Assembly: GCA_018816335.1 (NCBI GenBank)
Contig: JAHIVP010000018.1
Coordinates: 1 to 39,208, forward strand
Origin: Nanobdellota archaeon
Lineage (GTDB): Archaea > Nanobdellota > Nanobdellia > Pacearchaeales > GW2011-AR1
Reading direction: 5' to 3'
DNA: 39,208 nucleotides
Below, piece by piece: positions 2,558 to 33,749 of this stretch. Position 1 is the stretch's first letter, and every line of letters begins with the position of its first letter. The notes below the pieces were generated by a model that saw only the letters and a list, made by a program, of their open reading frames with translations, was not told the origin of the DNA and ran no database searches. The translations under genes and the position numbers were made by a program.

Positions 2558-4021
2558 CTATTTAATTCTTATGGGACGCGTTTTATGATATTGTTTTATA
2601 GCGTCTTTAAGTTCTACTTTACTTTCTGAATAGATTGTTAATAGAGGTTGGTGTTTTTTCACTCTATCATCTAAAGTTTTATACAAATACATTCCTGCGT
2701 TTTTATCTCCTGGACATCCTGCAATTCTTGCTATGTTGTTAAGTTCTTTGATTTTTAGTTCATATATTTTTCCAGTAGAATTAGAGTTTATTGTTTTTTG
2801 GAATTTTGTTTTTTGGAATTTTTTATTTACATCTCCATTTTGAGCTTCTACAATTTGTTTAAATTTTTTAAAAGCTTTCCCAGAATCTAAGATAGTTTTT
2901 GCTAGTTCTTCACCTTTTCCTTTTTTAGCTTTTTTTGTTAGTTCTAATAAAAGTCCTGAAAGTTCTAATGCTCTTTTTTCTAATAAAGGAGGAGCGTCTT
3001 TTTCTCTTTTTAACACACTTAATACTTCTTGAATTTCTAAAGATGGGCCAATTGAATTTCCTAGAGGTTTTTCTGTTTTTTTAAGAAATGTTTCTAAATT
3101 AACTTTAAAATATTTAGCAATTTGTTTAAATTCTTTTGATAATCTTTCTGCTTGAGTTTTTGTTACTTTAGCGTTTTTTCCATAAGGAATATCAATTACA
3201 ATGTATTTTGAATTTACAGATAATTTTTTTGCTAAGATACTTGCTAATAATTGTGTTTCTGGATCTAAGTTTAGTAAACGTTCTACACGAATTAATTTGT
3301 CGTCGGCAGGAGCTAAGTTTAGTGAACCTCCCCAAACTAAGCAAGCATTGGTTTTTTTAATTATTTTTAACATTTCAGGAATAGAAAAATTGACTTGGCA
3401 AATTACTTCCATAGCATCTGCTGTTCCTGCTGCTGAGGTTATTGCTCGACTTGAAGTTTTTGGAATTATTAATCCTGCTGATGCACATATTGAAACTAAA
3501 ATGGGGGTTACTCTTCCTGGAACTCCTCCGATTGAATGTTTGTCTGCAATTATCCCTGAATGAAGAGGAAGAGTTTTTCCTGTAGATAAAATTGCTTTTA
3601 TCATTTTTATTGCTTCTTTTATAGATGTTTTTGATTTGTAAACTGCAGAAATAAAATATGCAATTTCAGATTCTGTTAAAGCATTATCAGAAATATCTTT
3701 CATTATTGTTTTTAGTTCAGTTTGGGAAAGAGTTTTTCCTTGCATTTTTTTTCTGATTAAAGAAATTGATTCTGGTTTTGGAGCTAGTTCAATATCAACA
3801 TATTTTGGGAATTTTTTATGAAGAACTTCTTTTGAAACTGCTATTTCATTCATCTTTGTTAAATTGCATGCTGTATCAACAACAGAAATTATTTGATTTT
3901 TTCCTCCTGTGATTTTTATTCTATCATCTACTTGGATTGATAATTTATCAGCAAGTTTTTCATCAATGATTGCTACTGGACGTCCTGCTGACCATTTCAA
4001 TGATTTGATTTTAAGTCTAAT
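2558..4021 (-). CDS. deoA: AMP phosphorylase (thymidine phosphorylase family), probable AUU start
   Basis: Archaeal AMP phosphorylase cleaves nucleoside 5'-monophosphates with phosphate to the free base and ribose-1,5-bisphosphate; it is cytosolic. Family signatures are DKHSIGGVPG, IPKTSSRAITSAAGTADAME and GGSLNLAPADD, with the archaeal N-terminal extension and the C-terminal IARIAGCPGDKNAGMYL segment. The ORF track starts at TTG 4000. Translating upstream in frame gives IRLKIKSLKWSAGRPV, a typical family N-terminus, beginning with ATT at 4021. A GAGG Shine-Dalgarno (4031-4034) sits 9 nt before that ATT. There is no in-frame ATG, GTG or TTG between the upstream stop and 4000. The usual partners (ribose-1,5-bisphosphate isomerase, form III RuBisCO) are not in the window. 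Confidence 0.88.
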   Translation of the reverse strand: MRLKIKSLKWSAGRPVAIIDEKLADKLSIQVDDRIKITGGKNQIISVVDTACNLTKMNEIAVSKEVLHKKFPKYVDIELAPKPESISLIRKKMQGKTLSQTELKTIMKDISDNALTESEIAYFISAVYKSKTSIKEAIKMIKAILSTGKTLPLHSGIIADKHSIGGVPGRVTPILVSICASAGLIIPKTSSRAITSAAGTADAMEVICQVNFSIPEMLKIIKKTNACLVWGGSLNLAPADDKLIRVERLLNLDPETQLLASILAKKLSVNSKYIVIDIPYGKNAKVTKTQAERLSKEFKQIAKYFKVNLETFLKKTEKPLGNSIGPSLEIQEVLSVLKREKDAPPLLEKRALELSGLLLELTKKAKKGKGEELAKTILDSGKAFKKFKQIVEAQNGDVNKKFQKTKFQKTINSNSTGKIYELKIKELNNIARIAGCPGDKNAGMYLYKTLDDRVKKHQPLLTIYSESKVELKDAIKQYHKTRPIRIK

Positions 4022-7491: not shown

Positions 7492-8277
7492 ATGGGAGAG
7501 ATTCAAGACAAAAAAAAATCTTCTGAGATTTGTGGAGCAATAATCGGAGATGGTTGGATACAATCTAATGAAAGAGGTTTCTTTCTTGCCGGGGATCCCT
7601 TAGAAGACAAAGATTATTATGATAATCATATCTCTAAAATTTTTAAAGATATTATCTCTCCTGTTAAACCTAAAGAATTTCCATATTGGAAAGTTTATGG
7701 GATTTCATTATATAAAAAAGAATTAATAAAAAAATTAATAAGTCTTGGTCTCCCAAAAGGTAAAAAAGTTAACTCTGCTTTTATTCCTAGATGGATAATG
7801 AAATCTAATAAAACTATTGTTAAGGCGTTTATTAGAGGTTTATTTGATACTGATGGATGTATATTTTTTCAAAAAGATTATACTAAATATGCAAAAGATT
7901 TTAATAAGAAATATCATACAAAAGCGAGAATAAGAATATCAAGCATATCTTTTAATTTAATAGATCAGATTTTTGAATTATTTAATAGATTAAACTATAG
8001 GGTTACTAAAAGAAAGATAAAAAGAGGATTTTCAAATAACCGTAATAATAATGATGTCTATATTTTAGAGATGAATGAGATAAAAGGTATTGACAGATTT
8101 TTTGTGGAATTACAACCTGGCAATCAAAAACATTTAACAAAGTATCGTGTCTGGAAGAAGTTTGGTTTTTGTCCACCCAATACTACTCTCAAACAAAGAA
8201 AGGAAATACTTAAAAATAAGATTAATCCTTATAGATTATATGCGGGGATGCCGGAGCGGTCAAACGGGACAGTTTGA
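7492..8277 (+). CDS. LAGLIDADG homing endonuclease-like protein, 3' end inside a tRNA gene
   Basis: A 261-residue protein with two LAGLIDADG-type motifs, ICGAIIGDGWI near residue 14 and FIRGLFDTDGCI near residue 113, each with the catalytic acidic residue. This is the architecture of a monomeric homing endonuclease or an RNA-splicing maturase relative. The ORF does not stop before the downstream tRNA: its last codons (AGMPERSNGTV) are the tRNA 5' exon, and the TGA stop at 8275-8277 lies at the predicted 5' splice region of the tRNA intron. A TATA-like TATTTATA about 29 nt upstream suggests its own promoter. It is free-standing, not inside a host protein. Whether it acts on the tRNA intron is inference. 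Confidence 0.82.
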   Translation: MGEIQDKKKSSEICGAIIGDGWIQSNERGFFLAGDPLEDKDYYDNHISKIFKDIISPVKPKEFPYWKVYGISLYKKELIKKLISLGLPKGKKVNSAFIPRWIMKSNKTIVKAFIRGLFDTDGCIFFQKDYTKYAKDFNKKYHTKARIRISSISFNLIDQIFELFNRLNYRVTKRKIKRGFSNNRNNNDVYILEMNEIKGIDRFFVELQPGNQKHLTKYRVWKKFGFCPPNTTLKQRKEILKNKINPYRLYAGMPERSNGTV

Positions 8278-8409
8278 TGGAATTTTCATCAAGTCCATAC
8301 TCAAAACCATTTCGGAGGAATCTTTAGAAAAGATTCCCAAAGAACAACATAATGTTGTGAGAGATCTGTTGGCTTAGTGCCTTCGAGAGTTCGAATCTTT
8401 CTCCCCGCA
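8242..8409 (+). tRNA. tRNA-Leu with ~86-nt intron in the anticodon loop
   Basis: The acceptor GCGGGGA/TCCCCGC pairs perfectly; the T-arm is GAGAG-TTCGAAT-CTTTC; a long variable arm (GGC-TTAGT-GCC) marks a class II tRNA; discriminator A73 favours Leu over Ser. The anticodon stem is GACAG (8268-8272) with CTGTT (8366-8370). The loop is interrupted by about 86 nt. Splicing after T8274 gives loop TTGAGAT, anticodon GAG; splicing one base later gives TAG. Both are Leu. Reading the 5' side straight through would give UGA (Ser) but with a pyrimidine at 37, so it is disfavoured. I could not fold a clean bulge-helix-bulge motif. Confidence 0.75.
8275..8360 (+). other. Intron of tRNA-Leu, carrying three hairpins
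   Basis: Boundaries are uncertain by a base or two. It contains TTGATG/CATCAA (8274-8292, the first base in the exon), GGAATCTTT-AGA-AAAGATTCC (8317-8337) and ACAACAT/ATGTTGT. The second has the same 9-bp stem plus AGA loop plan as the intergenic hairpin at 167-187, with different stem bases, and both continue with a CAAA-type tail. The intron may therefore have been enlarged by one of the hairpin elements. Confidence 0.5.
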
Positions 8410-8640
8410 TTTTATCCTATCGCAGATAGAATTTTATATTTGGATGAGAACTCTAGAGTTCGACGAGTATATTCACGAGTGGAATCTTGGAGGGTTTCAA
8501 AATAAAAAGGCGAGTGGGTATAGGAGCTTTCTTTTTCCCCGCATTCACAGCCTGTCGGGGCATATAGTGGTAATTTCATAGACTGTAAATGTGGGTCCCC
8601 GCAGGGAGATATTTAAATAGTGAAAAAAATTAGATAAAAT
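8410..8640. repeat. Intergenic hairpin region with tRNA-like remnants
   Basis: Contains hairpin CTATC-GCA-GATAG (8417-8429), the 14-bp palindrome GAACTCTAGAGTTC (8448-8461), and GACGAG...CACGAGTGG phrases that resemble, inverted, the spacer near 2318-2335. The string CCCCGCA, which ends the tRNA-Leu, recurs at 8537-8543 and 8597-8603. Bases 8556-8601 can fold CGGGG/CCCCG around TAGTGGTAA and ACTGTAAA, resembling tRNA D- and anticodon-arms without a T-arm. I do not call a tRNA. A TATA-like ATATTTAAATAG lies before the next gene. Confidence 0.4.
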
Positions 8641-9354: not shown

Positions 9355-9433
9355 GTTGGAATGAAAATTCCTTCCACATCAGAAAGTCTAAGACTGTGCC
9401 TACGCACAGATTAGATTGAGTGACTTTCCGATG
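9355..9433. repeat. Two-hairpin element between tRNA genes
   Basis: Hairpin GGAAT-GAAA-ATTCC is followed by a nested hairpin: outer CATC/GATG and GAAAGTC/GACTTTC, inner CTGTGC-CTAC-GCACAG, with single-stranded TAAGA before and ATTAGATTGAGT after the inner stem. A second copy of this plan at 22077-22153 has inner CTGCGC-CTTC-GCGCAG and different outer arms, so pairing is kept while bases change. The last base of this element is the first base of tRNA-Gly. Confidence 0.65.
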
Positions 9434-9503
9434 CGCTGGTAGTCTAGTGGTAGGATCACAGCCTTCCAAGCTGTTGACCCGGGTTCAAATCCCGGCCGGC
9501 GCA
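9433..9503 (+). tRNA. tRNA-Gly (anticodon UCC)
   Basis: Acceptor GCGCTGG/CCGGCGC, D-loop TCTAGTGGTAGGA, anticodon loop CTTCCAA on a CACAG-type stem, T-arm CCGGG-TTCAAAT-CCCGG, discriminator A. The anticodon TCC reads GGA/GGG. No intron. Confidence 0.95.
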
Positions 9504-19606: not shown

Positions 19607-21010
19607 ATGAAATTAATGTTGATTGTTCCTCCAAATACTTTAGAAGAGAGGTATGGGAGTTTATCTGGAATTGGAACTTTGTATCCTCCACTTGGTTTGG
19701 CTTATTTAGCTGCTTATGCTGAAGAAAAAGGACATGAAGTAAAAGTTATAGATTCTGAAGCAGAAGGGTATGGTTATGAAGATATAAATAAAATAGCTAA
19801 GAAATTTGAACCTGATTTAGTTGGGATGTCAACTTATTGTACAACTTTGAATAAAGCTTATAGAGTTGCTGAAAATCTGAAGAAAATTATTGATGTGAAA
19901 GTTGTTTTGGGAGGTGCTCAAGCTACTCTTGAACCTGAGAAAACATTAAGTAATAAAAATATTGATTTTGTTATTTATGGGGAAGGAGAAAAAAGTTTAG
20001 GTGAGTTAATGGAAGTTTTAAATGGGGATGTAAAGGAATTTTCTAAAGTTAAAGGTTTAGTATATAAAAATTCTAAAGGTGAGATAAAAGTAAATAAAAA
20101 AAGAGAGTTGATAAAAGATTTAGATGAGATTCCTTTACCTGCAAGGCATCACTTTCCTATGAATTTGTATCATTCATCTGCTAATTTAAGAGGTAAGAGG
20201 ACTTTGAATATTATGACTTCTAGGGGTTGTCCTTATCAGTGTACATATTGTGCTGGGTCTTTAATTTTTGGAACAAATTTTAGGTTTGTTTCAACAGATA
20301 AAGTAATTGAAGAAATTAAACAAATGAGAGATGAGTATAAAATAGATAGTATTCAATTTTATGATGAAACATTTACTGTTAATAGAAAAAGAGTGATAGA
20401 GCTTTGTGATAAGATGATAAAGGATAAATTGAATTTGACATGGAGTTGTTTTACTCGTGTTAATTTAGTTGATAAAGAATTGTTGAAGAAGATGAAGGAT
20501 GCTGGGTGTTATTTAATTTTTTATGGTTTTGAATCTGGAGTTCAGAGATTGTTGAATATGATAAATAAAGGGATAACCTTAGAGCAATCATTGAAGGCTG
20601 TTAAGATGACTCATGAAGTTGGGATTGAAACATGGGGAAGTTTTATTTTAGGTTTGCCTTCTGAAACAAAAGAGGAAACAAAAGAGACAATTGAGTTTGC
20701 TTTGAAACTTAATCCAACTTTTATTCAGTTTCCGATTGCTATTCCTTTTCCTGGAACAAAAATGCATGAGCAAGCTTTGCAACACGGAAAGTTGAAAGAA
20801 GATTGGGATAATTTTACTGCCTGGGATGAAGTTGTTTATGTTACAAAAGGAAGAAGTGAAAAAGAGTTAAAAGAGGCTGTGAAAAATGCATATAAGAAGT
20901 TTTATTTACGGCCGAGTTATATAATTAATAGAATGAAGAGTATATACAAACTACCAATTAAAAATTCTTTTGCACTTGCAAAGGCTGCGTTTTTGACGTT
21001 TATTAAATGA
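19607..21010 (+). CDS. B12-binding-type radical SAM enzyme
   Basis: 467 residues. An N-terminal cobalamin-binding-like Rossmann domain (PPLGLAYLAAYAEEKGHEVKVID, VVLGGAQATLEPE, IYGEGE) is followed by a radical SAM barrel with CPYQCTYC near residues 207-214 and a GFESG motif. The cluster of three Cys holds the 4Fe-4S that cleaves SAM. Members include methyltransferases and ring-forming or oxidative enzymes; the substrate is unknown. Its stop overlaps the next glycosyltransferase start by four bases, so it probably acts on a glycan or lipid-linked intermediate. Confidence 0.87.
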   Translation: MKLMLIVPPNTLEERYGSLSGIGTLYPPLGLAYLAAYAEEKGHEVKVIDSEAEGYGYEDINKIAKKFEPDLVGMSTYCTTLNKAYRVAENLKKIIDVKVVLGGAQATLEPEKTLSNKNIDFVIYGEGEKSLGELMEVLNGDVKEFSKVKGLVYKNSKGEIKVNKKRELIKDLDEIPLPARHHFPMNLYHSSANLRGKRTLNIMTSRGCPYQCTYCAGSLIFGTNFRFVSTDKVIEEIKQMRDEYKIDSIQFYDETFTVNRKRVIELCDKMIKDKLNLTWSCFTRVNLVDKELLKKMKDAGCYLIFYGFESGVQRLLNMINKGITLEQSLKAVKMTHEVGIETWGSFILGLPSETKEETKETIEFALKLNPTFIQFPIAIPFPGTKMHEQALQHGKLKEDWDNFTAWDEVVYVTKGRSEKELKEAVKNAYKKFYLRPSYIINRMKSIYKLPIKNSFALAKAAFLTFIK

Positions 21011-21696
21011 AACTAAGTGTAATAATGCCAGCATATAATGAAGAGGCTTCTATTAGAGAGATAATTAAAAAAGTTCAGGCTGTTAAAATTGATAAAGAGA
21101 TAATTATAGTTGATGATGGAAGTACTGATAAGACTAGAGAGATATTAACAGAGTTAAGTAAGAAGAATAAGGAGATGAAAGTTGTTTTTCATAAGAAGAA
21201 TGGTGGGAAGAGTACTGCTGTTAGGACAGGAATTGAACATGCTACTGGAGATATTATAATTATACAAGATGCTGATTTAGAATATGATCCTGAAGATTAT
21301 TATAAGTTGGTTGAACCGATTGTAAGTGGAAAAGCTAAGGTTGTTTATGGTTCGAGATTTTATACAAAAGATAAAAGGCCTTCTTTGAGAAATAAGTATT
21401 TTTGGGGAACAAGAACATTGACAATAATGGCTAATGTTCTTTATGGAGCAGGTATAACTGATGAACCAACTTGTTACAAAGTTTTTGATGCTAAGGTTTT
21501 GAAATCTATTCCTTTGAAATCTAAGAGGTTTGAGTTTTGTCCAGAGGTTACTGCTAAGGTTAGGAAGAGAGGTTATAAAATTCATGAGCTTCCTATTAAT
21601 TATTATCCAAGAACTGTTGAAGAGGGGAAGAAGATAAATTGGAAGGATGGGGTGGAGGCTGTGTGGACTTTGATTAAGTATAGGTTTGTTGATTGA
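21007..21696 (+). CDS. GT2 family glycosyltransferase (DPM synthase-like)
   Basis: 229 residues, a single GT-A domain without TM helices. It starts LSVIMPAYNEEASIREII, has VDDGSTD near residue 38 and QDADLEYDPEDY near 91 (the DxD metal site), and ends after ELPINYYPR...KINWKDGVEAVW, all like dolichyl-phosphate mannose/glucose synthases. It would charge dolichyl phosphate with a sugar that the GT-C enzyme at 17782 could use. Translationally coupled to the radical SAM gene by ATGA overlap. Confidence 0.88.
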   Translation: MKLSVIMPAYNEEASIREIIKKVQAVKIDKEIIIVDDGSTDKTREILTELSKKNKEMKVVFHKKNGGKSTAVRTGIEHATGDIIIIQDADLEYDPEDYYKLVEPIVSGKAKVVYGSRFYTKDKRPSLRNKYFWGTRTLTIMANVLYGAGITDEPTCYKVFDAKVLKSIPLKSKRFEFCPEVTAKVRKRGYKIHELPINYYPRTVEEGKKINWKDGVEAVWTLIKYRFVD

Positions 21697-21833
21697 AATA
21701 CCCTCCTGCGAAATCCGCTCCTTTGTCGCTTTCCCATTTCGCACCCAAAAAATTATTAATATCTAAAACACAAGTATTTATTTTTAATATCTTAAACTTT
21801 ATAAGGAGAGTTATAATTTAATATTTAATAAAT
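21697..21833. repeat. Intergenic inverted repeat
   Basis: TGCGAAAT (21707-21714) and ATTTCGCA (21736-21743) flank a 21-nt pyrimidine-rich loop just after the glycosyltransferase stop. It may act as a terminator or be another hairpin element. The rest is an AT-rich promoter stretch for the methyltransferase. Confidence 0.5.
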
Positions 21834-22427
21834 ATGGGGACAATAGACAGATATATACAAGATAATTGGCTGAGACCGATTCGGTTAAAAGCTATATTGA
21901 AAATTCTGAATAAACTTCCTGGAGGAAGTGTGTTAGATGTGGGTTGTATGGATGATTATTTGTTAAAGAGAATTGATAGAAAGAAGTTTGATTATTCTGG
22001 AATTGATATTGAACCTCTTGTTGAACATGATAAGATTATGAAGAAGAGTGTTGAGGAATTAATTAAAGGGAAGAACCCTCAGAAATCAAAGATTTCTGGG
22101 GCCACAAAATCCAAGACTGCGCCTTCGCGCAGAAATAGTGAGGATTTTGATGGTTATGATATTGTAATTGCGACAGAAGTTTTGGAGCATGTTGATGATC
22201 CTGTAGATGCTATGAAGAAGATAAAAGGTTTGTCGAAGAGGTTTGTGTTAGTTTCTGTTCCTAATGAACCATGGTTTATGTTAGCAAGGGGTTTTGCGCC
22301 TGATAGAGAACATCTTTGGACAATTAGGCCTTGGACACTTGATAAGAACTTTGGTAAGCCTGTATTGACTCAAAAAGCTTGTTTTAGAAGGAGCCATATT
22401 GCTTTGTATGATTTGAGTAAGAATTAA
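21834..22427 (+). CDS. SAM-dependent methyltransferase (class I) with an in-frame hairpin insertion
   Basis: 197 residues. Motif I is SVLDVGCMDDYLLKRI near residue 35, an acidic IDIE follows, and YDIVIATEVLEHVDDP is motif II/post-II, typical of UbiE/Methyltransf_11-like enzymes. Between them lies an extra basic, low-complexity stretch (PQKSKISGATKSKTAPSRRN) encoded exactly by the hairpin element at 22077-22153. Without it the protein would have a normal core length. Position in the glycan block suggests a sugar or lipid acceptor. Whether the enzyme still works with the insert is open. Confidence 0.8.
   Translation: MGTIDRYIQDNWLRPIRLKAILKILNKLPGGSVLDVGCMDDYLLKRIDRKKFDYSGIDIEPLVEHDKIMKKSVEELIKGKNPQKSKISGATKSKTAPSRRNSEDFDGYDIVIATEVLEHVDDPVDAMKKIKGLSKRFVLVSVPNEPWFMLARGFAPDREHLWTIRPWTLDKNFGKPVLTQKACFRRSHIALYDLSKN
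22077..22153. repeat. Two-hairpin element inserted in the methyltransferase gene
   Basis: Hairpin 1 is an 11-bp stem, CCTCAGAAATC/GATTTCTGGGG, with loop AAA (22077-22101). Hairpin 2 (22102-22153) has outer CCA/TGG and AAAATCC/GGATTTT, and inner CTGCGC-CTTC-GCGCAG flanked by AAGA and AAATAGTGA. It is the same plan as 9355-9433 with compensating base changes, and shares CAAAATC arms with hairpins at 37-57 and 2390-2408. The reading frame stays open through it. Confidence 0.75.
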
Positions 22428-22601
22428 GAGTTTTAAAGCCACCACCCCAACTCGATAACCTCGGAGCTCGGTTATCTTGTTTTAAGGAATTATTAATGTA
22501 AGAAATTTCAAAATAGATTAAATAGTATTAAAAAATTATGTTAATTAACACTTTATCTAGAGTAAATAAATCTTTAAATAATCAAAAATTTATGGTGAGG
22601 T
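22428..22601. repeat. Intergenic hairpin with GCCACCACCCC motif
   Basis: GCCACCACCCC (22438-22448) is the reverse complement of 239-249 in the left-edge array. It is followed by GATAACC/GGTTATC (22454-22476) closing a TCGGAGCTC loop. The remainder is AT-rich with a probable TATA (TCTTTAAATAATC) before the next gene. Confidence 0.5.
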
Positions 22602-24011
22602 ATGGTTGGATACAAAAGAGTAGTATTAATGAATATGCCTTCAACAATAAGGGTTTATGGTAAGTCTGCTTTGAAAGGAATTATAGCTCCTCGTCCTTTT
22701 GTTTCTATGGCGGAATTAGGTGGAAGTGTACTTAATGCTGGAGCTGATTGTAAAATTTTAGAGTTGCAAGTTTCTAATAAACCATTTGAAGAAATTGAAA
22801 ATATGATTAAAACTTATAAGCCAGATTTAATAGGATTAACATTTACAACATTATTGTTTGAAGAAGCTAAAGAAGTTGCTAAATTTATTAAGGAGAAAGA
22901 TAAAAGTGTAACTGTGGTTGCTGGAGGAGTTCATTCTTCTATTTTTCCAGAAGAAGTTGCTAAATCTGAAAATATTGATATTACTGTTTATGGTGAAGGA
23001 GATATAACAATTCAAGATATTGTTAAGGGAAAACCTTTGAAAAGCATTAAAGGAATTGCTTATAAAAATTCTAAAGGGGATGTTGTGAAAAATCCTGCTC
23101 AACCTCAAGTTGAGAATTTGGATGAACTTCCGATGCCTGCTTGGCATTTGTTTGATCCTAAAATTTATATGAATCCAATGGCAATTGCTAGAAAGTCTCC
23201 TGTAGGAACTATTGGAACATCAAGAGGGTGTGTTTTTGGATGCACGTATTGTAATAAATCTGTTTTTGGAAGAAAGTTTAGAGGGAAGGGTGTTAAGAGA
23301 GTTGTTGATGAGTTTGAGATTTTGATTAAGAATGGTTTTAAGGAAATTCATGTTTGGGATGATATGTTTGCAACAGATTTGAAGAGGGCTAAGGCTATTT
23401 GTGATGAGATATATAATCGAGGATTAAAGTTTACGTGGCAGTTAGAGTGTGGGGTGAGAGTTAATGCTGTTGATGCTGAATTTTTTAAAAAGTGTGCTAA
23501 GGTTGGATGTTATAAGGTTGCATTTGGGTTTGAGTCTGGAGATGATGAGATATTAAAATCAATAAATAAAGGAACAACAATTGAGCATGCTAAAAGTGCT
23601 GTAAAGTGGGCTAAACAAGCTGGAATGGAAGTTTCTGGTTTTTTTATGTTGGGACTTCCTGAAGATACAGAAAAGACAATGAGAAAAACAATTGAATTTG
23701 CTAAGAGCTTGGATATTGATTATGCTAAAGCTACGATTTTGGTTCCTTTGCCTTCTACTCCTGTTTTTGATGAGTTTGAGAAAAAAGGTTTGCTGAAAAC
23801 TAAAGACTGGACAAGATATAATTTTCATACTGCTTCAAAAGTTTATGATCATCCTAAATTAAGTTGGGAAGTTTTAGAAAAATATTATGATACATTTCAT
23901 AAAGAATTTTATTTTCGTCCATCTTATATGGTTAAGAGATTGTTTTTGAGTATTAAGAATGGGCAGTTGATTGATAATGTTAAGACTGCTTTTAATACGT
24001 TTGTTAAGTAG
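22602..24011 (+). CDS. B12-binding-type radical SAM enzyme
   Basis: 469 residues. The cobalamin-binding-like domain (FVSMAELGGSVLNAGADCKILEL, VVAGGVHSSIFPEE, VYGEGD) precedes a radical SAM barrel with CVFGCTYC near residues 210-217 and GFESGDDE. The C-terminal 70 residues (DWTRYNFHTASKVYDHPKLS) are family-specific. The start is supported by GGTGAGGT just before ATG. Substrate unknown; a methyl transfer or C-C/C-H modification of a glycan or lipid is the natural guess from the neighbours. Confidence 0.87.
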   Translation: MVGYKRVVLMNMPSTIRVYGKSALKGIIAPRPFVSMAELGGSVLNAGADCKILELQVSNKPFEEIENMIKTYKPDLIGLTFTTLLFEEAKEVAKFIKEKDKSVTVVAGGVHSSIFPEEVAKSENIDITVYGEGDITIQDIVKGKPLKSIKGIAYKNSKGDVVKNPAQPQVENLDELPMPAWHLFDPKIYMNPMAIARKSPVGTIGTSRGCVFGCTYCNKSVFGRKFRGKGVKRVVDEFEILIKNGFKEIHVWDDMFATDLKRAKAICDEIYNRGLKFTWQLECGVRVNAVDAEFFKKCAKVGCYKVAFGFESGDDEILKSINKGTTIEHAKSAVKWAKQAGMEVSGFFMLGLPEDTEKTMRKTIEFAKSLDIDYAKATILVPLPSTPVFDEFEKKGLLKTKDWTRYNFHTASKVYDHPKLSWEVLEKYYDTFHKEFYFRPSYMVKRLFLSIKNGQLIDNVKTAFNTFVK

Positions 24012-24098
24012 ACTTTCACAAGTAAAAGTCTACAACCTGAACTTTTATTCCCTTTATCCCTATACTTAAGGCCCCTTAAAAGTAAAAAAGTTCAGGTT
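24008..24098. terminator. Stop-codon hairpin and large inverted repeat after the radical SAM gene
   Basis: GTAGACTTT/AAAGTCTAC (24008-24033) includes the TAG stop of the gene above. Directly after it AACCTGAACTTTT (24034-24046) pairs perfectly with AAAAGTTCAGGTT (24086-24098) around a pyrimidine-rich interior. This would form a cruciform or a strong RNA hairpin. It may end transcription or be another inserted element. Confidence 0.5.
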
Positions 24099-24152
24099 AA
24101 AAAGTAACTCAACCACATAAATCCTTAAATATTGATAAAATATTTGGAGTTT

Positions 24153-25493
24153 ATGAAGAAAAAAGTTGTAATACTTGGAGCTGGTATAACTGGATTGGTT
24201 TCTGCATATTACTTGAGTGAGGATTATGATGTTGTTGTGATTGAAAAGGGTAAAAGTGTAGGAGGTAGTGCTGCTGGTTTTAAGTATAAAGATTTTATTA
24301 TGGATTATGGTCCACATAAGATTTATTCTGAATTACCTGGAATTATGGATGAAATTGAGAAAGTTGTTGAGTTGAATAAAATAAAGAAAAAAAATAGTAT
24401 TTATTTAGAAGGGAATTATTTTGAGTTTCCATTAAAGATTCAGCAGATTATGAAAAAGATGCCATCTAAAGCATTTAAGGCAGGATGGGATATGTTTGCA
24501 AAGTCAATTAGTAAAAAACCAGATGATTCTTATGAAAATTATTTGATAAATAGGTTTGGAAAAACAATGTATAATTTATCATTTAGAGATTATGCTGAAA
24601 AAGTTTGGGGAAGTAATCCTAAGGAGCTTGATAAAGAGTTGGCAAAGAGAAGAGTTGCTATAACTGGAATGTTGGATTTAATTAAAGGGATTTTATTTAA
24701 AGATACAAAAAACATTAGTGCTGATTATTTTTACTATCCTCCTAAAGGAATTAAGCAATTAATTGATAATATCGTCGATAAAATAAAGAAAAATGGAGGA
24801 AGGATATTAACAAATGAAAATATTTCTGAGATAAAAATTGAGAATAATATGGTTAAAGATATAAAAATAAAAAATGGAATTATAAAAATGGATTATATGA
24901 TTTCTACTATTCCTCTTGATGAGTTTGTTAAATATATCAATGCTGATGAAGAAGTTTTAGATGCTGCTTCAAAACTTAGATATCAAAAACTAAATATTTT
25001 GTATTTTATTTTAAATAAACCAAGAGCAATGGAAGATAGTTGGAGATTTTATCCTGAAAAGAAGTTGATATTTCAGAGAGTGAGTGAAATGAAAAGTTTT
25101 TCACAAGATGTTGGGCCTGAAGATAAAACTGTTTTAATGGTAGAGACAATTAAAGATGTTAATAAAGAGTTAGTTAAAAAAATAATTGAACAGCTTGAAG
25201 AGGTTGGTTTGATTAAGGAAAATGAAATTGAAGAGTATTTTTTAAAGAGTTATGATAAGTCTTATCCTGTTTATACTAAAGGATTTAAAGAACATTTAAG
25301 TAAGATTTTAGAATATATTGAGAAATATGAGAATTTTTATTCTACAGGAAGGCCTGGTTTGTTTAATTATAATAATATGGATCAGTGTTGGGATATGGCT
25401 ATGAAAACTGCTGAACATATTAAAGAAGATAAGTCTAGAGAAGATTGGCAGGAAACTAAAACTTATTTTGATAAGTATAGGATAGTTGATTAG
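24153..25493 (+). CDS. FAD-dependent oxidoreductase, protoporphyrinogen oxidase/amine oxidase-like
   Basis: 446 residues from ATG 24153; the ORF track uses a TTG 21 nt earlier. The N-terminus KKVVILGAGITGLVSAYYL...VVVIEKGKSVGGSAAGF is a classic dinucleotide-binding fold with the GG motif of the amine oxidase/UDP-galactopyranose mutase group. The middle (YFYYPPKGIKQLIDNIVDKIKKNGG) is shared with protoporphyrinogen-oxidase-like proteins, and GRPGLFNYNNMDQCWDMA near the end is the FAD C-terminal motif. Homologues often sit in polysaccharide clusters; a redox step on a sugar nucleotide or lipid-linked sugar is plausible. Substrate not known. Confidence 0.8.
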   Translation: MKKKVVILGAGITGLVSAYYLSEDYDVVVIEKGKSVGGSAAGFKYKDFIMDYGPHKIYSELPGIMDEIEKVVELNKIKKKNSIYLEGNYFEFPLKIQQIMKKMPSKAFKAGWDMFAKSISKKPDDSYENYLINRFGKTMYNLSFRDYAEKVWGSNPKELDKELAKRRVAITGMLDLIKGILFKDTKNISADYFYYPPKGIKQLIDNIVDKIKKNGGRILTNENISEIKIENNMVKDIKIKNGIIKMDYMISTIPLDEFVKYINADEEVLDAASKLRYQKLNILYFILNKPRAMEDSWRFYPEKKLIFQRVSEMKSFSQDVGPEDKTVLMVETIKDVNKELVKKIIEQLEEVGLIKENEIEEYFLKSYDKSYPVYTKGFKEHLSKILEYIEKYENFYSTGRPGLFNYNNMDQCWDMAMKTAEHIKEDKSREDWQETKTYFDKYRIVD

Positions 25494-25533
25494 CATTTCA
25501 TATATTTTATAAACAATATTTCTATAGATATTT

Positions 25534-27057
25534 ATGGAAGATAATAAGAAACTTGCAAAGTCGCTTGTTAGAAGTTCAGTTTATGATTTTCTGAATATAA
25601 CAGTTAACAGAGTTGCTTCTTTAATTTTAGTTATTATTCTTGCTAGAATGTTGCTTCCTGAAGGTTTTGGGATATATAGTTTAGCTATGTCAATTGCTAT
25701 GATTTTTGTTTCTATTTTTGATTTGGGTATGACACAAAGTGTTTCAAGATATGTTGCTTATGAAATTGGAAAGAAAAATAAAAAAGGCGCAACTGCTTAT
25801 TTTAATTATTTATTGAAGAGGAAAATCTTTTTGGTTTTATTAACAGGGCTTGCGTTAGCAGCTTTGTCTTATCCTTTAGCATTTTTAGTTTTTAAGCAGC
25901 CAGCTCTTTTTGGAGCTTTACTTGCTGCATCTGCTTATGTTATCTTTTATTCAATAAATCCTTTTTTTAGTGAGATGTTTTATGTTTTTAAGAATGTAAA
26001 AATTCTTGCAATTAAGGAGTTTGTTTTGCAATCATTGAAGTTAATTTTTGTTTTGATTATTTTCTTTGTTATAAATTCAGTTAATAAAACTCCTTTAATT
26101 TTTCTTTTTTATGGATTAGCTAATTTGATTGTTTTTATTCCATTGGTTTATTTAACAAAGAAAAATCAAAAGTTCTTGTTTGAAAAAGGAAAAGTAGATT
26201 TTGATAAGATTAAATTGTGGAAGTATATGGGATATCTTGCTATTGGAGGATTTTCATTTATTATTTTTGGATATATAGATGTTGTAATGATAGGTATTTT
26301 AATTCCAGATGTTGCATATGTTGGATTTTATAGAGCTTCTTTAGGTCTTATATACAGTATCGCTGCTTTGTTAAGTTTTACTCATGTTTTATTTCCAACA
26401 TTTGCTCAAACAAAAAAAGAACAATTGAAAAAAGTTTTTAATAAAGCTTTTAAGTATTCCCTAATAATTTCTGTTCCTATTGCTTTAGGTTTGATCTTAT
26501 TTAGTAATTATGTAATTAAAGTTATTTTTGGTAATGCTTACTTAGAATCCTCATATGTTTTGGCTGCACTATCTATTATAATTGTATTTAGTGTTAATTC
26601 AGCTATTTTATCTACATTGTTCTCAGCAAAAGAAAAACCTGCTTTTTTTGTTAGGATATTGATTCTGACTTCGATAATTAATATTATTTTGAATTATGTT
26701 TTTATTTCTATTTTGATTAATATATCCTATTTATCTGCGATTGTAGGTGCTGCAATTGCAACTGTTATAAGCAGAGGAATTTATTTTTCTGCTTTATGGA
26801 TAAAATCTAAAAAAGTTTTTGGATTGAGTATTCCAAAATCAGAAATTATAAAACCTATATTCGCAGGTATAATCATGTTTGGGGTATTGTTTTTGATTAA
26901 TTTTTATTTTGTTAGTGATATGAATTTGATTATAGGAATTGTAGAAGTTATATTTGGAGCTTTGATTTATTTTGTTACCTTGATTTTAATTAAAGGTGTT
27001 TCTAAATGGGATTTGGAATTGTTGAAGAATTCTGTGAGAGGAATGATTAAAAATTAA
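25534..27057 (+). CDS. Wzx-like polysaccharide flippase (MOP superfamily)
   Basis: 507 residues with about 14 TM helices. The start (SLVRSSVYDFLNITVNRVASLILVIILARMLLPEGFGIYSLA) is the standard N-terminus of RfbX/Wzx O-antigen flippases. It would move lipid-linked oligosaccharides across the membrane. It follows the FAD enzyme by 40 nt and completes the glycan block with the GT2 and GT-C enzymes. Confidence 0.88.
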   Translation: MEDNKKLAKSLVRSSVYDFLNITVNRVASLILVIILARMLLPEGFGIYSLAMSIAMIFVSIFDLGMTQSVSRYVAYEIGKKNKKGATAYFNYLLKRKIFLVLLTGLALAALSYPLAFLVFKQPALFGALLAASAYVIFYSINPFFSEMFYVFKNVKILAIKEFVLQSLKLIFVLIIFFVINSVNKTPLIFLFYGLANLIVFIPLVYLTKKNQKFLFEKGKVDFDKIKLWKYMGYLAIGGFSFIIFGYIDVVMIGILIPDVAYVGFYRASLGLIYSIAALLSFTHVLFPTFAQTKKEQLKKVFNKAFKYSLIISVPIALGLILFSNYVIKVIFGNAYLESSYVLAALSIIIVFSVNSAILSTLFSAKEKPAFFVRILILTSIINIILNYVFISILINISYLSAIVGAAIATVISRGIYFSALWIKSKKVFGLSIPKSEIIKPIFAGIIMFGVLFLINFYFVSDMNLIIGIVEVIFGALIYFVTLILIKGVSKWDLELLKNSVRGMIKN

Positions 27058-27132
27058 TCTTTGAGTTTCCAATTTAATTATGAGTGTTTATGAAATTTCA
27101 TATAAAGCTCATGACAAAGGAGGGTTATTTAA

Positions 27133-28008
27133 TTAGAAAACACTAACTAATATTAGTCCTATTAATATTATAATCGATGAAATTATTCTTATTGTACCAT
27201 ATTTTTCTTTTAATAAATAGATTCCAAGTATAACTGTAAATAATATACTCACTTGTCTAAATGCAAAAACATAGCTTAATGTACTGATAGATAATGCAAT
27301 AATTACTAAATTGAAAGAAAAGAAATTTAATAGAGCTATGGCAATTATTTGAGTTTTGAATTTTTTAAATTGGGAGAGAAGGTTGTTTTTTTTAATTGAT
27401 AAAAAAGGAGTATAAAATATCACAAAAAAGAAATATGTTAAATATACTAACATAAAAAAATTAATTTTTGTAGATCCTAGCTTAAAACTTAATCCGTATA
27501 GTGCACTCATTATTGCTGCTAGGACAGCTAAGAAAGAGGCTTGATGTTTAAGAGATACTAGAGGTTTAAATAAATTATTTATAGTGAATTTTTTGGAATT
27601 GATAGCGTATGCTCCTAAAACAATTAAAAAAATTCCTGATATTTGTAAAGGACTAATATCCTCATTTAATAAAAATATTCCAATTATTAGAGTAAATATA
27701 GGGGTTATTTTTGTTAATGGAAATACAAGAGATAAATCTCCGTGCTGATAGGATTTGCTTAAAAATATAACATAAAAAGACATGAAGAATCCAGAAAGAG
27801 CTGCAAAGAAGAGTCCAGATAAATTTATTTTGAAAAAAAGAAAAAAAGAAAAAAAAGGAATAAGGAATAAAATTAAATTAATTATTGAAGAGCTCCAATA
27901 TAATGTAACAGAATCTCCTCCCTGATTAATCACTTTTTTTAGAATATAATTCCATGAAGTAGCAAGAACTGCTGAGATTAATATTAAAATTACAACAATT
28001 ATTGTCAT
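27133..28008 (-). CDS. EamA/DMT-family transporter
   Basis: 291 residues, ten TM helices in two repeats of five, as in EamA drug/metabolite transporters (SWNYILKKVI... in the first half, a second repeat from SFLAVLAAIMSALYGLSFKLG). The first repeat has LVFPLTKITPIFTLIIGIFLLNE and the second FAFRQVSILFTVILGIYLLKE, matching the family. It diverges from the phosphonate operon with 155 nt between starts; it might move a precursor or product, but this is only proximity. Confidence 0.85.
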   Translation of the reverse strand: MTIIVVILILISAVLATSWNYILKKVINQGGDSVTLYWSSSIINLILFLIPFFSFFLFFKINLSGLFFAALSGFFMSFYVIFLSKSYQHGDLSLVFPLTKITPIFTLIIGIFLLNEDISPLQISGIFLIVLGAYAINSKKFTINNLFKPLVSLKHQASFLAVLAAIMSALYGLSFKLGSTKINFFMLVYLTYFFFVIFYTPFLSIKKNNLLSQFKKFKTQIIAIALLNFFSFNLVIIALSISTLSYVFAFRQVSILFTVILGIYLLKEKYGTIRIISSIIILIGLILVSVF

Positions 28009-28131
28009 TTTTTTGGATAGTTAGTGAGGTATTTAAATATAAGTAGGATAAAAAGTTGTTATCTAAAATATCTTACACATAATTAATATAAATTTCATAT
28101 TATTGTTAAATACTATATTTTGGTATAATAA

Positions 28132-28159
28132 TCTTTAAATACTACTAGTATTACTAGTA
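28132..28159 (+). promoter_or_regulatory. Promoter and palindromic operator of the phosphonate operon
   Basis: A TATA box, TTTAAATA (28134-28141), is followed by TACTAGTA-T-TACTAGTA (28143-28159), two copies of a self-complementary octamer around one base, ending four bases before ATG 28164. With a leaderless start at the ATG, the palindrome sits between TATA box and transcription start, where a bound protein would block initiation. The first gene of the operon has an AbrB-like DNA-binding domain, so autorepression is a natural hypothesis. Confidence 0.6.
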
Positions 28160-28163
28160 CAGT

Positions 28164-28718
28164 ATGAAAAAGATGGTATGGCTTAACAAATCGAATGGCC
28201 AGTTATGTGTTACAATTCCTAAAAATTCTGGAATAAAAGGTGGAGAAATTGTTAATATAGAAAAAGAAAAGATTAAAAGAATAGTTTATTCTCCAATGAC
28301 AGCTGACTTATTCCATTATGGGTATCTTAGAGCACTAGAGAATGCTAATTCATTAGGAGACTTTCATATTTGTGGTGTATTAACTGATGAAGCAATAAAA
28401 TCTTATAAAGAAGAACCTATAGCAGATTTTAAAGAAAGATTTGCAATAATCTCAGCATTAAGGTGTGTTGATATGGTGGTTACTCAACACCAAATTGATC
28501 CTTCTGAAAATTTAAAAGAAATTTATAAACAATTCAAAAATTCAAAAATAATTCTTATATCTTCTCCAAAATGGAAAAAAGTTCCTGGACAAGAATATAT
28601 TAAAAAAATTAAAGGAGAGGTTGTGCAGTTTCCTTTTTATAACAAATTATCAAAAGAAAACATTGTTAAAAAAATTCTAAAAATTAATGAAAAGGAGGGA
28701 GTAAAAAATTATGGATAA
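28164..28718 (+). CDS. AbrB-domain fused to a degenerate cytidylyltransferase-like domain
   Basis: 184 residues. Residues 1-32 (MVWLNKSNGQLCVTIPKNSGIKGGEIVNI) look like a SpoVT/AbrB swapped-hairpin DNA-binding domain. From residue ~38 a nucleotidyltransferase fold follows, IVYSPMTADLFHYGYLRAL, related to the cytidylyltransferase domain of the 30077 protein ([13 protein letters not shown]). The catalytic HxGH motif reads HYGY, losing the second His, and the C-terminal ISxTxL-type motif is absent (KLSKENIVKKIL). It may therefore sense a CMP-phosphonate or CTP rather than catalyse transfer. It heads the operon and overlaps the next gene by eight bases. Confidence 0.72.
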   Translation: MKKMVWLNKSNGQLCVTIPKNSGIKGGEIVNIEKEKIKRIVYSPMTADLFHYGYLRALENANSLGDFHICGVLTDEAIKSYKEEPIADFKERFAIISALRCVDMVVTQHQIDPSENLKEIYKQFKNSKIILISSPKWKKVPGQEYIKKIKGEVVQFPFYNKLSKENIVKKILKINEKEGVKNYG

Positions 28719-30117
28719 AAAAATAAAAAAAATAATGTTGATGACTCCAAGATATACTTTATTTAAAAAAGATGTTAGGAGATGTGTGACTCCTCTAGGT
28801 TTGGCTTATTTAGGGGCATTTTTAGAAAGAAATGATTATGAAGTGAAAATCGTAGATATTGCTAATGAAGGACATGATAATATTAATGAACATGGAGATT
28901 TAGTTACTTATGGGCTATCTGATGAAGAAGTTAAAAAAATAATTAAAGAATTTAATCCTGATATTGTAGGAGTTTCTTGTATCTTTTCAACACAAGCAAA
29001 GAATGTAGAACATACATTAAATCTTGTTAAAGAGGTAGATAAAAATATTATAACTGTGGTAGGGGGTTCTCATCCAACATATGCTCCAGATAAGATGTTA
29101 GATTTACATAGTCTTGATTATATAATTATGGGAGAAGGAGAGTTACCTACATTACAATTATTAAATACTTTAAATAATGATGGAGATATTTCAGAAATTG
29201 GAGGATTGGCATTTCAAAAAGGAGAAGAAAAAATTATTAATTCAAATTCACAATTTGTTAAAGATTTAGATACTTTACCTTTTCCTGCAATGCATTTATT
29301 GAATATGGAACAATATTTTAAAATAAACTTGCCTCAAAATCCTTATCCAAAAGGTAAAAGAGTAGCTCAAATAATGACTTCAAGAGGATGTCCTGCTAAA
29401 TGTATATTTTGTACAACAACAAATTTTTGGGGTAATCGTTTCAGAGGAAGAAGTGCAGAAAGTGTTGTTGAGGAAGTGCAAAAATTAAAAGAAAAATATG
29501 GTATCGATGAGATTCAATTTACAGATGATAATTTTACATTACAAAAAGACAGAGCGATGCAGATACTTGATGGAATAAAAGATTTGAATTTAAAATGGTG
29601 TTCTCCTCAGGGAGTTGCTGCTTGGGCACTTGATGATGAGTTACTTGAAAAAATGAAAGAGTCTGGATGTTATCAATTGACTTTTGGTCTTGAAAGTGGT
29701 AATCAACATGTTTTAAATAATATTGTCAAAAAACCATTGAATCTTCAGAAGGTTAAACCATTAGTGAAAAAAGCTCAAGAACTTGGAATAAAAGTTCATG
29801 CTTTTTGTGTTTGTGGATTGCCTGGAGAGACGATTGAACAAATGAAAGAAACTTATGATTTTTGTGAAGATTGTGGATTTAATAGTGCTTCTTTTTTTGT
29901 TGCTAATCCACTAATAGGGTCAGAATTATTACAAATATGTGGGGAAAATGGATATTTTAAAGAAGAGATAGATTATGCAACAACGAGTTTTAAAGTAGGA
30001 AATATTACAACCCCTGAATTTAAGGCTGAGCAGGTTCAAGAACTTGTAGCACAATTTAATAGAGAATATAATCAAAATGACATCAGAAGAAAAAATTTTG
30101 AATCAGATAAATATTGA
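28711..30117 (+). CDS. B12-binding-type radical SAM enzyme in the phosphonate operon
   Basis: 468 residues. The cobalamin-binding-like domain ([43 protein letters not shown]) precedes a radical SAM barrel with CPAKCIFC near residues 227-234 and FGLESGNQH. It is overlapped by the gene before (8 nt) and the gene after (41 nt), so it is locked into the operon. In fosfomycin synthesis the B12 radical SAM enzyme Fom3 methylates CMP-activated 2-hydroxyethylphosphonate; this protein could play a similar part. That is inference from context, since many B12-type radical SAM enzymes look alike at this level. Confidence 0.85.
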
Positions 30118-31438
30118 CGAAGAAAAACCTGGAATATCAAAACCCAAACAAGTTTATATGGGATTATGTGCAGATTTGATTCATCCAGGTCATTTGAATA
30201 TTTTGAATGAAGCAAAAAAACATGGAGAAGTAACAATAGGCCTTTTAACAGATAAAGCCATGGCAAGTTATAAAAGACTTCCTTATTTAACATATGAACA
30301 AAGAAAAATAGTAGTAGAAAATCTTAAGGAGGTAAAACAAATAGTTCCGCAAGATACAGTAGATTATGTTCCAAATTTAAAAAAATACAAACCAGACTAT
30401 GTGATTCATGGTGATGATTGGAAAACCGGTTTTCAAAGAGCTGTGAGAGCTCGAGTAATTGAAACTCTTAAAGAATGGGGAGGATCTCTTATAGAGATCC
30501 CATATACAAAAGATATATCTTCAACAAAATTAAATCAAGAAGTTAGAAAACTAGGGATTACCCCTGAAATGAGGATGGGAAAATTAAGAAGACTTTTACA
30601 AGCAAAACCCATAAGTAGATTTTTAGAAGCACATAATGGTTTAACTGGTTTAATTGTAGAAACTACTAGAATAATAAAAGATGAAATTCCAGAAGAATTT
30701 GATGGTATTTGGATAAGTAGTTTAACAGACTCTGTTGCAAAAGGAAAACCAGATATGGAATTTGTTGATTTAACTTCAAGACTTAGCACAATACATCAAA
30801 TATTAGAGATAACAACTAAACCAATAATAGTTGATGGAGATACTGGAGGGTTGCTTGAACATTTTCCTTATACTGTAAAAACTCTTGAGAGGTTGGGGGT
30901 TTCTGCAATTATAATTGAAGATAAAATTGGATTGAAAAAAAATTCTTTGTTTGGAACAGATGTACCACAAACACAAGATTCAATAGAAAATTTCTCAAAG
31001 AAAATTTTTATAGGCAAGAATTCTCAAGTTACAGATAATTTTATGATTATAGCGAGAATTGAAAGTTTGATATTGAAAAAAGGTTTAGATGATGCACTAA
31101 AAAGAGCAAAGGCCTATATTGAAGCTGGTGCTGATGCAATAATGATTCATAGTAAAGAGAAAGAACCAAATGAAGTTTTAGAATTTTGTGAAGAATATTC
31201 TAAGTTTGAAAATAAAGTTCCTTTAGTTGCAGTCCCAAGTACTTATAGCCATATTACAGGAGGCCAATTAGAAAAAGCAGGGGTTAATATGGTTATATAT
31301 GCAAATCATTTACTGAGGAGTTCTTATTTAGCTATGAAAAGAACTGCAGAGTTAATCTTAGCTTGTAATAGAGGTCTTGAGGCAGAGGGGAATTGTATGA
31401 ATATTAAAGATATTTTAAATTTGATTCCAGAAGAATAA
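30077..31438 (+). CDS. pepM: Bifunctional cytidylyltransferase / phosphoenolpyruvate phosphomutase (Fom1-like)
   Basis: 453 residues, two enzymes in one. Residues ~27-165 are a cytidylyltransferase ([15 protein letters not shown] with intact HxGH at 36-39, and [10 protein letters not shown] near 155). Residues ~185-453 are PEP mutase: DGIWISS, VDGDTGG and the diagnostic [10 protein letters not shown] near 281-290. PEP mutase turns PEP into phosphonopyruvate, the entry to nearly all biological phosphonates. The same fusion is known in Streptomyces Fom1, where the first domain makes CMP-hydroxyethylphosphonate. Isocitrate lyase-family relatives lack EDKxxxxxNS, so the mutase call is firm. The start overlaps the preceding gene by 41 nt. 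Confidence 0.92.
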
Positions 31439-31470
31439 TAAATTCTAAACAATTATTAATATTAAACAAA

Positions 31471-32598
31471 ATGTTAAAATGTGAAGATTTGAAAAAGATA
31501 TTTGATGAGAATGATTTAACTTTTTTTAGTGGAGTTCCTGATTCTACATTTAAAGGGTGGATGAATTATTTGGCTGAAGGGAATGGGATGAAGAATATAA
31601 TTGCTTGTAATGAATGTGAAGCTGTTGCAAATTGCTCAGGATATCATCTTGCTACTGGAAAAGTAGGAGTTGTTTATATGCAAAATTCTGGATTGGGGAA
31701 AACAGTGAATCCTATAACCTCTTTAGTTGATAAGGAAATTTATTCTATACCTATGGTGTTGATGATAGGATGGAGAGGTAATCCTAATGATGAAAAAGAA
31801 GATGAACCTCAACATAAAATGATGGGGAAAATAATGTTTCCTTTATTAAATATTTTAGACATTCCTTATAAGATTATTCCTGAAGATAAAGTTGAGGCTG
31901 CAATTGTTATTGAAAAGATGAAGAAGATTGCTGAAGAAACAAAACATCCTGTTGCTATTATAATACAGAAAGGAATTATTGATAATTATAATTGGGGGGA
32001 AAATAAAGAGGAAAAATATGAGATGTTGAGAGAAGATGCTATTAAAACTATTATTGATAATTTAGATGGTGATGAAGTTATTGTTTCTACAACAGGTCAT
32101 GCTTCAAGAGAGTTATTTGAATATCGGGTTGCAAAAGAAGAGAAGCATAGAGATTTTTATACTGTTGGAAGTATGGGATGTTCTGCTTCGATAGGAAATA
32201 TAATTGCATTGGAAAAACCGGATAAGAAAATTTTTGTTTTTGATGGTGATGGAGCAGTTTTGATGCAAAAGGGAGCTTTAGCTAGTATTGGGAATTATGG
32301 GGCTAATAATTTTTATCATATTATATTTGATAATCATTCTTATGATTCAACTGGTGGACAACCAAGTGTTTCAGAGAGTATAAATTTTGAAAAAATAGCT
32401 GAAGGTTGTGGATATAATTTTATTAAAAAAGCAAAAACTAAATTAGAATTATTAGATAGTATTAAAGAGCTAAAAGAAAAACAAGGGCCTTGTATGTTAA
32501 TTGTGAATATTAATAAAGGTTCAAGAAAAAATTTAGGAAGACCTACTACAACTCCTATTGAGAATAAAGAAGCGTTTATGGAATTCTTAAATAAATAA
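31471..32598 (+). CDS. Phosphonopyruvate decarboxylase
   Basis: 375 residues, normal length. A TPP-dependent enzyme that decarboxylates phosphonopyruvate to phosphonoacetaldehyde and so pulls the unfavourable mutase reaction forward. It starts FFSGVPDSTFKGWMNYL, has the catalytic Glu in CNECEAVANCSGYHLATG near residue 51, and the TPP motif FDGDGAVLMQKGALASIGNYGANNFYHIIFDN near 264-295, with STGGQPS typical of the family (Fom2/AepY). It follows pepM by 32 nt. Sulfopyruvate decarboxylase is the nearest alternative, made unlikely by the neighbouring mutase. Confidence 0.93.
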   Translation: MLKCEDLKKIFDENDLTFFSGVPDSTFKGWMNYLAEGNGMKNIIACNECEAVANCSGYHLATGKVGVVYMQNSGLGKTVNPITSLVDKEIYSIPMVLMIGWRGNPNDEKEDEPQHKMMGKIMFPLLNILDIPYKIIPEDKVEAAIVIEKMKKIAEETKHPVAIIIQKGIIDNYNWGENKEEKYEMLREDAIKTIIDNLDGDEVIVSTTGHASRELFEYRVAKEEKHRDFYTVGSMGCSASIGNIIALEKPDKKIFVFDGDGAVLMQKGALASIGNYGANNFYHIIFDNHSYDSTGGQPSVSESINFEKIAEGCGYNFIKKAKTKLELLDSIKELKEKQGPCMLIVNINKGSRKNLGRPTTTPIENKEAFMEFLNK

Positions 32599-32604
32599 TT
32601 TAAA

Positions 32605-33708
32605 ATGAATCAAGCAGAATATATCGGAGATGGAAGTGTTGATAATCTTAGAGAGATAGTTAGGGGAGAGGGAGTAGAAAGGGTTTTTGTTGTGAGTGGG
32701 AGAGATTCTTATGAAAAGAGTGGGGCGAGGGAGGCAATAGATAGAAATCTTAGAGCAGTGAAGTTTGATAGGTTTTGTGAGTTTTCTGTGAATCCAAAAA
32801 TAGAGGAGATTGAATTAGGATTAAGAAAGTTTGAGAGAGGAGATTATGAGATGATTGTTGGTATTGGAGGAGGTAGTGCGATTGATGTTGCTAAATCTAT
32901 AAAGATGTTTCATGTTGAAAGATATAGTGGGAGGGCAGTTCCTTTGGTTGCAATACCTACTACTGCAGGTAGTGGGAGTGAAGCAACTTATTTTGTTGTT
33001 TATTATGAAGGGAAAGAAAAACAATCTGCAGGAAAACCTGAATTAACTTACCCTGATTATGCTATTGTGGATCCGAGACTGACATTGTCAATGCCTTCTT
33101 CTGTTGCTGCTTCTACTGGAATGGATGTATTAGGGCAAGCAATTGAATCTTATTGGAATGTAAATGCAACAGATGAATCAAAAGAGCTTGCTAACAAAGC
33201 AATTAGACTCTTAGTTGGGAATTTAGAAAAATCAGTTGCTGAAGGAAATATATCAAATAGAACCCCTGTTATGTTGGGGGCTAATTTAGCTGGAAAGGCA
33301 ATTAATTTAACAAAAACAACTGCTTGTCATTCTGTGGCTTATCCTATAACTTCTTATTTTGGGGTTGCTCATGGGCATGCTGTTGGACTTACATTAGGAG
33401 AGATGTTGGTTTTTAATTCACAAGTTGATGAAAGAAGTTGCACAGATGAAAGAGGAGTAAGATATGTAAAAGATACAATTGGAGAGATTACAAAACTATT
33501 AGATGCTGAGAGTGCTCTAGAGTCTAGAAGAAAGATAAAAACACTTATGACTAAAATTGGATTAGAAACTAGGTTATTAAAATTAGGTATAAAAAAACAG
33601 GATATTCAAATGATTATTGAAAATGGTTTTACACCTGAAAGAGTTAAGAATAATCCAAGAGTTTTAGAAGAGCAGGATTTAAGAAATATGTTAGATAATA
33701 TAACATAA
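32605..33708 (+). CDS. Iron-type alcohol dehydrogenase, probable phosphonoacetaldehyde reductase
   Basis: 367 residues. NAD(P)-binding IGGGSAIDVAKS near 92 and IPTTAGSGSEAT near 120; metal ligands in GMDVLGQAIESYW, ACHSVAYP and FGVAHGHAVGLTLG. GQAIESYWN and the ending ERVKNNPRVLEEQDL are features I associate with phosphonoacetaldehyde reductases (PhpC, FomC) rather than generic alcohol dehydrogenases. The product would be 2-hydroxyethylphosphonate. It starts six bases after the decarboxylase gene. No 2-aminoethylphosphonate transaminase is in the window, which supports the hydroxyethyl route. Confidence 0.88.
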   Translation: MNQAEYIGDGSVDNLREIVRGEGVERVFVVSGRDSYEKSGAREAIDRNLRAVKFDRFCEFSVNPKIEEIELGLRKFERGDYEMIVGIGGGSAIDVAKSIKMFHVERYSGRAVPLVAIPTTAGSGSEATYFVVYYEGKEKQSAGKPELTYPDYAIVDPRLTLSMPSSVAASTGMDVLGQAIESYWNVNATDESKELANKAIRLLVGNLEKSVAEGNISNRTPVMLGANLAGKAINLTKTTACHSVAYPITSYFGVAHGHAVGLTLGEMLVFNSQVDERSCTDERGVRYVKDTIGEITKLLDAESALESRRKIKTLMTKIGLETRLLKLGIKKQDIQMIIENGFTPERVKNNPRVLEEQDLRNMLDNIT

Positions 33709-33749
33709 CAATCTTTAAATATTAAAATTAGTTAAGAGTATAAATTAAG

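Follow-up and report, generated by a model that had tools for sequence, protein, structure and literature searches.

Two-hairpin palindromic elements inserted in frame in protein genes of Nanobdellota archaea: a probable counterpart of the Rickettsia palindromic elements

Two copies of the element in one contig

The window, a 39,208-nt stretch of the Nanobdellota archaeon contig JAHIVP010000018.1, contains two copies of a short palindromic element. One ends at the base immediately preceding a tRNA-Gly gene, and the other lies within a gene for a class I methyltransferase (Table 1). The initial annotation had pointed out both copies, and both are found in the sequence where it placed them: the core AAGACTGYGCCTNCGCRCAG occurs twice in the window and not once in 100 shuffles, the outer arms GAAAGTC/GACTTTC (9382-9388/9422-9428) of the first copy and AAAATCC/GGATTTT of the second each pair, and the inner stems of the two copies differ by the T-A/C-G swap that had been described. 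Absent from that description were the hairpin directly upstream in each case (HP1), which belongs to the same unit, and the location of the second copy within a protein gene. Both copies fold better than shuffled sequence (z of -4.1 beside the tRNA gene and -5.35 in the methyltransferase gene). Elsewhere in the window, neither a covariance model nor an HP1 descriptor finds anything above chance. The initial annotation also knew of no named archaeal family for its plan; in agreement with this, a search of the whole window against Rfam at the gathering threshold returns only tRNAs, and a relaxed search with both copies gives only chance-level matches.

Table 1. Features of the two element copies and of the adjoining genes (window coordinates)
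Feature	Position	Strand	Evidence
HP1 of tRNA-Gly copy (GGAAT GAAA ATTCC)	9358-9371	+	sequence, folding
HP2 of tRNA-Gly copy	9378-9432	+	covariance model, 54.8 bits
Inner hairpin module CTGTGC-CTAC-GCACAG, inside HP2 loop of tRNA-Gly copy	9394-9409	+	
tRNA-Gly(TCC), adjoins 3' end of element	9433-9503	+	
Host gene, class I methyltransferase, 197 aa	21834-22427	+	PF13489, E 8e-14
Complete element, 78 nt, in frame	22076-22153	+	
HP1 of methyltransferase copy, CCCTCAGAAATC AAA GATTTCTGGGG	22076-22101	+	
HP2 of methyltransferase copy, CCACAAAATCC ... GGATTTTGATGG	22102-22153	+	covariance model, 56.9 bits
Inner hairpin module CTGCGC-CTTC-GCGCAG of methyltransferase copy	22117-22132	+	

In the copy beside tRNA-Gly, HP1 pairs more weakly than in other copies. 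The outer stem of HP2 is continued by 9378-9380/9430-9432, with one A/C mismatch; in the minimum-energy fold, a competing stem, GUCUAA/UUAGAU, replaces the outer stem of the initial annotation. This part of the window holds other tRNA features as well. A tRNA gene with an anticodon-loop intron (8241-8410) is missed by a default scan and is read as tRNA-Ile(GAT) by ARAGORN with introns allowed; its long variable arm is more Leu- or Ser-like. The end of a LAGLIDADG endonuclease gene (7492-8277, PF14528) lies in the 5' half of this tRNA gene, and a tRNA-like stretch at 8540-8607 (GGGGCATATAGTGG ... GACTGTAAAT ... GGTCCCCGC) has no recognisable T arm.

The reading frame of the methyltransferase gene is uninterrupted across the second copy. 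In conceptual translation, the element is an insert between KGKN and YDIVIATEVLEHV, with the peptide PQKSKISGATKSKTAPSRRNSEDFDG. The surrounding region (19607-35342) encodes several radical-SAM/B12-binding proteins, one of which was checked, near glycosyltransferase-like and cytidylyltransferase-like genes, and may be a gene cluster for a surface polymer or for lipid.

Architecture, distribution and pairing of the unit

The full unit, usually 78-81 nt, consists of two hairpins, HP1 and HP2, joined by GGNGCCAC. Comparison of the in-gene copies places its 5' end between A and CNCT and its 3' end directly after GNNGG; following (A/G)A or a similar dinucleotide, the layout is C N C T ... HP1 ... 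GG N GCCAC ... HP2 ... GNNGG. HP1 has 11 pairs and one bulge. HP2 has a 10-pair stem and an asymmetric loop, which contains the CTGYGC/GCRCAG hairpin. The initial annotation had made this hairpin the inner stem of its plan; the motif is present, but it is an optional loop insert of the wider two-hairpin unit. A 63-nt copy in the same genome (contig C23) lacks it, as do units in other genomes of the order (G117, G124, G128 and G077), the one in G124 within a 129-codon open frame. Thus, the family is wider than the model search implies.

The genome from which the window comes (G000; a 0.9 Mb draft, 82% complete) carries about 20 copies. A search of the whole draft with the 20-base core, up to three mismatches being allowed, yields 16 matches versus none for the reversed control, and the covariance model, trained on 32 copies, finds 18-20. 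The model also detects the element in two further genera of the same archaeal family, represented by G008 (up to 14 copies) and G022 (12 copies). No other genome among 200 of the order is matched, and samples of the class (378) and the phylum (371), which overlap with that of the order, reveal no new hosts. An exact pattern run against GTDB genome contigs gave five single matches in unrelated bacteria, approximately our chance expectation, and IMG/VR holds one match to the element pattern. In a nine-taxon LeuRS tree of modest support, the three hosts fall apart from one another. Together with the empty orthologous sites described below, this indicates that the host genera carry separate insertions.

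Covariation of the stems is extensive. In 46 core copies, pairing is seen in 87.6% of cells, and 59 changes are two-sided versus 17.5 in shuffles; the signal lies above all 500 shuffles and above all slid registers. Among 17 full units, 94.1% pair, two-sided changes number 40 versus a single one-sided change, and all slid registers fall far short. A separate count of 199 Watson-Crick pairs, 2 G-T pairs and 7 mismatches is indicative, its procedure being biased to Watson-Crick pairs. RNA helices under selection usually pass through G-U intermediates. The near absence of G-U pairs in the stems therefore leans toward a DNA palindrome or arm-to-arm copying, and a DNA-level palindrome or copying mechanism is favoured over RNA selection as the source of the covariation. 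A role primarily as a conserved structured RNA is unlikely. Of the earlier proposal that selection on structure, or a mechanism copying it, is at work, the covariation itself stands; the evidence favours a dispersed in-frame repeat rather than a dedicated structured RNA family.

Copies in protein genes and in leaders

Protein genes contain at least 16 copies, every one of them sense and in frame. In G000, the hosts are LeuRS, IleRS, MetRS, RtcB, Cbf5, AlkD, a CYTH protein, an ADP-forming acyl-CoA synthetase, an aIF2B-like protein, the window methyltransferase and a small protein; in G022, they are Trm5, GatD, a second methyltransferase, a chorismate-mutase-like protein and a glycosyltransferase. 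The names derive from Pfam for the window methyltransferase, Cbf5 and AlkD, from PDB matches for RtcB and Cbf5, and from our reading of the sequences for the rest.

The insert is absent from same-family homologues of LeuRS, RtcB, Trm5, the CYTH protein, the ADP-forming acyl-CoA synthetase and the second methyltransferase; MetRS and GatD, whose alignments are poor near the site, were left out of this evidence. Most of the RtcB insert is missing from the P. horikoshii protein (1uc2), and Cbf5 aligns with a solved structure (2apo) before and after its insert, the match breaking at the insert itself. In AlkD, excising 78 bases restores GDKHDLIHKG. None of the comparable orthologous gene sites is occupied in a second host genus, and no target duplication is visible at the in-gene copies.

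The insert lengths (63, 78, 81, 84 and 132 nt) are divisible by three wherever the ends are clear; L159 measures 79 nt only because the search string starts two bases inside the element, the string for L012 is likewise off the true ends, and the ends of L003 and L058 are less certain. The 132-nt, in-frame insert is that of IleRS (L165; G000, contig C17, near 3491-3559), which has a second palindrome nested in the inner hairpin. Frame 0 is open in all 12 coding copies and in 13 of the 33 others (P = 3e-4), a statistic that bears indirectly on whether the mature protein would contain the translated insert. Differences among five coding copies fall at codon positions 1, 2 and 3 in the ratio 63/46/60, and in AlkD the element is read in another open frame. 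This lack of third-position bias and the different frame in AlkD indicate that the peptide is not preferentially conserved; at the sequence level, selection on it is not evident. The inserted peptides match no family in NCBIfam or Pfam.

Many intergenic copies are also sense and lie shortly 5' of start codons, the neighbouring genes being simple open-frame calls. At three such leader loci in G000 and G008 (L001, L034 and L076), direct repeats of 14-18 nt (X) flank the element. They include the ribosome-binding or start region, or overlap with it, and the element terminates in an inverted copy of part of the flanking repeat. The resulting order, X-HP2-HP1-X(reverse complement)-X-ATG, is complete at 3 of about 28 non-coding loci examined. 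Either an uncommon insertion reaction or a switch for ribosome access may account for it.

Probable mobility and relation to known repeats

Taken together, the observations make it likely that the element is a short, non-autonomous mobile palindrome, probably moved in trans, and an archaeal counterpart of the Rickettsia palindromic elements (RPEs). A mobilising enzyme would recognise the folded palindrome in DNA, either single-stranded or as a cruciform, and then insert the element. Insertions in coding DNA would persist only when sense and in an open frame, and each would lengthen the protein by about 26 hydrophilic residues, probably at loops on its surface; other insertions would be kept in leader regions or next to tRNA genes. 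Pairing of the stems would be maintained by a requirement of mobility for the fold, by re-copying of one arm from the other, or by both. Counting against a DNA element is the sense orientation of most intergenic copies as well, which such an element would not obviously require. Among candidate mobilisers, a Y1 transposase (PF01797) was not found in G000 or G008 (drafts 82-84% complete), a reverse transcriptase was not found in G008 (an incomplete draft), and TnpB was not found in any of the three hosts (incomplete drafts); none of these is common to all three.

An elaboration of the mobile-palindrome reading, which we regard as doubtful, starts from palindromes that are protein-coding and adds a novel insertion reaction that leaves an inverted copy of the target in leaders. 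The arms would then be kept identical by templated copying, not by selection, and each leader copy would switch the ribosome-binding site of its own gene.

A further reading dispenses with a transposition enzyme and lets the palindromes spread solely through replication slippage and template switching. It would explain the two-sided changes that lack one-sided intermediates, the inverted target copies adjoining leader copies, and the absence of a mobiliser common to the hosts. It is nevertheless improbable, since the same whole unit recurs with the same ends on many contigs, at sites that are not linked, and across genera, a pattern for which local template switching does not account. Equally hard to credit is a cis-acting structured RNA, similar to a leader or riboswitch, with the coding copies as stray duplicates. 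Such an RNA would switch by pairing of its 3' stem with either the upstream copy of the Shine-Dalgarno region or the real one, and both the many sense copies just before start codons and the X arrangement at the three leader loci are in its favour. Against it stand the copies in coding regions and those beside tRNA genes; in addition, G-U pairs are nearly absent, the genes share no evident regulatory theme, and so few of the non-coding loci show the full arrangement. Finally, archaeal introns cut by the tRNA splicing endonuclease, with in-gene copies that are never translated, would fit structured inserts in conserved genes whose removal restores the consensus protein, but this is very improbable given that the lengths stay divisible by three and the frame open over 63 to 132 nt, neither of which an intron needs, that copies are present in intergenic DNA too, and that no bulge-helix-bulge was recognised at the ends, short of a dedicated test.

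For the mobile palindrome, the closest parallel is found in the RPEs (Ogata 2000, 2002; reviewed in PMC2229807, PMC10969869). In-frame palindromic inserts in conserved genes have been described for Rickettsia and Wolbachia (PMC2229807, PMC10969869). Like these, the archaeal element is a short, foldable palindromic repeat, both intergenic and in frame in several unrelated conserved protein genes whose homologues are empty; the host protein presumably tolerates the insert, the genomes are reduced, and no mobiliser has been assigned. RPEs also occur in RNA genes, and one archaeal copy in the window directly abuts a tRNA gene. The differences are that RPEs form one long stem-loop of 105-146 nt, whereas the archaeal element has two small hairpins, and that the latter resides in another domain of life and, unlike the RPE and Wolbachia palindromes, has an optional inner hairpin in its second loop. 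Its peptide is without a match in NCBIfam and Pfam, libraries that may or may not hold RPE families. By behaviour, the element is best seen as a counterpart of RPEs; it is probably of independent origin and may be unrelated to them in sequence. In the literature searched, which covered few subscription journals, no earlier archaeal report of such palindromes was found. The RPE way of life in a separate archaeal element suggests that reduced genomes repeatedly host DNA that persists because its translation does no harm. Related organisms have versions of several of these proteins with the insert and versions lacking it, which are natural experiments on tolerance, and the stems provide a test of why palindromes covary, by selection or by copying.

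Two other classes of repeat are comparable in part. REP/BIME sequences mobilised by RAYT (TnpA-REP) are likewise small hairpins that insert without obvious target duplication, but REPs are extragenic, whereas the archaeal element is also found in genes, and the Y1 domain of RAYT was not found in two of the three archaeal hosts, within the completeness of the drafts. Archaeal MITEs, listed for example for Sulfolobus and Halobacterium (PMC10969869), are also small non-autonomous repeats in archaea. They differ in that the in-gene copies of the present element have neither terminal inverted repeats nor target site duplications, and no parent transposon was found; classical MITE-type terminal inverted repeats were not seen, and flanking repeats occur at the three leader loci. 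In G008, dense further hairpins surround the element copies at several loci (L018, L025 and L087-L090), which suggests that more than one palindromic repeat family is present there.
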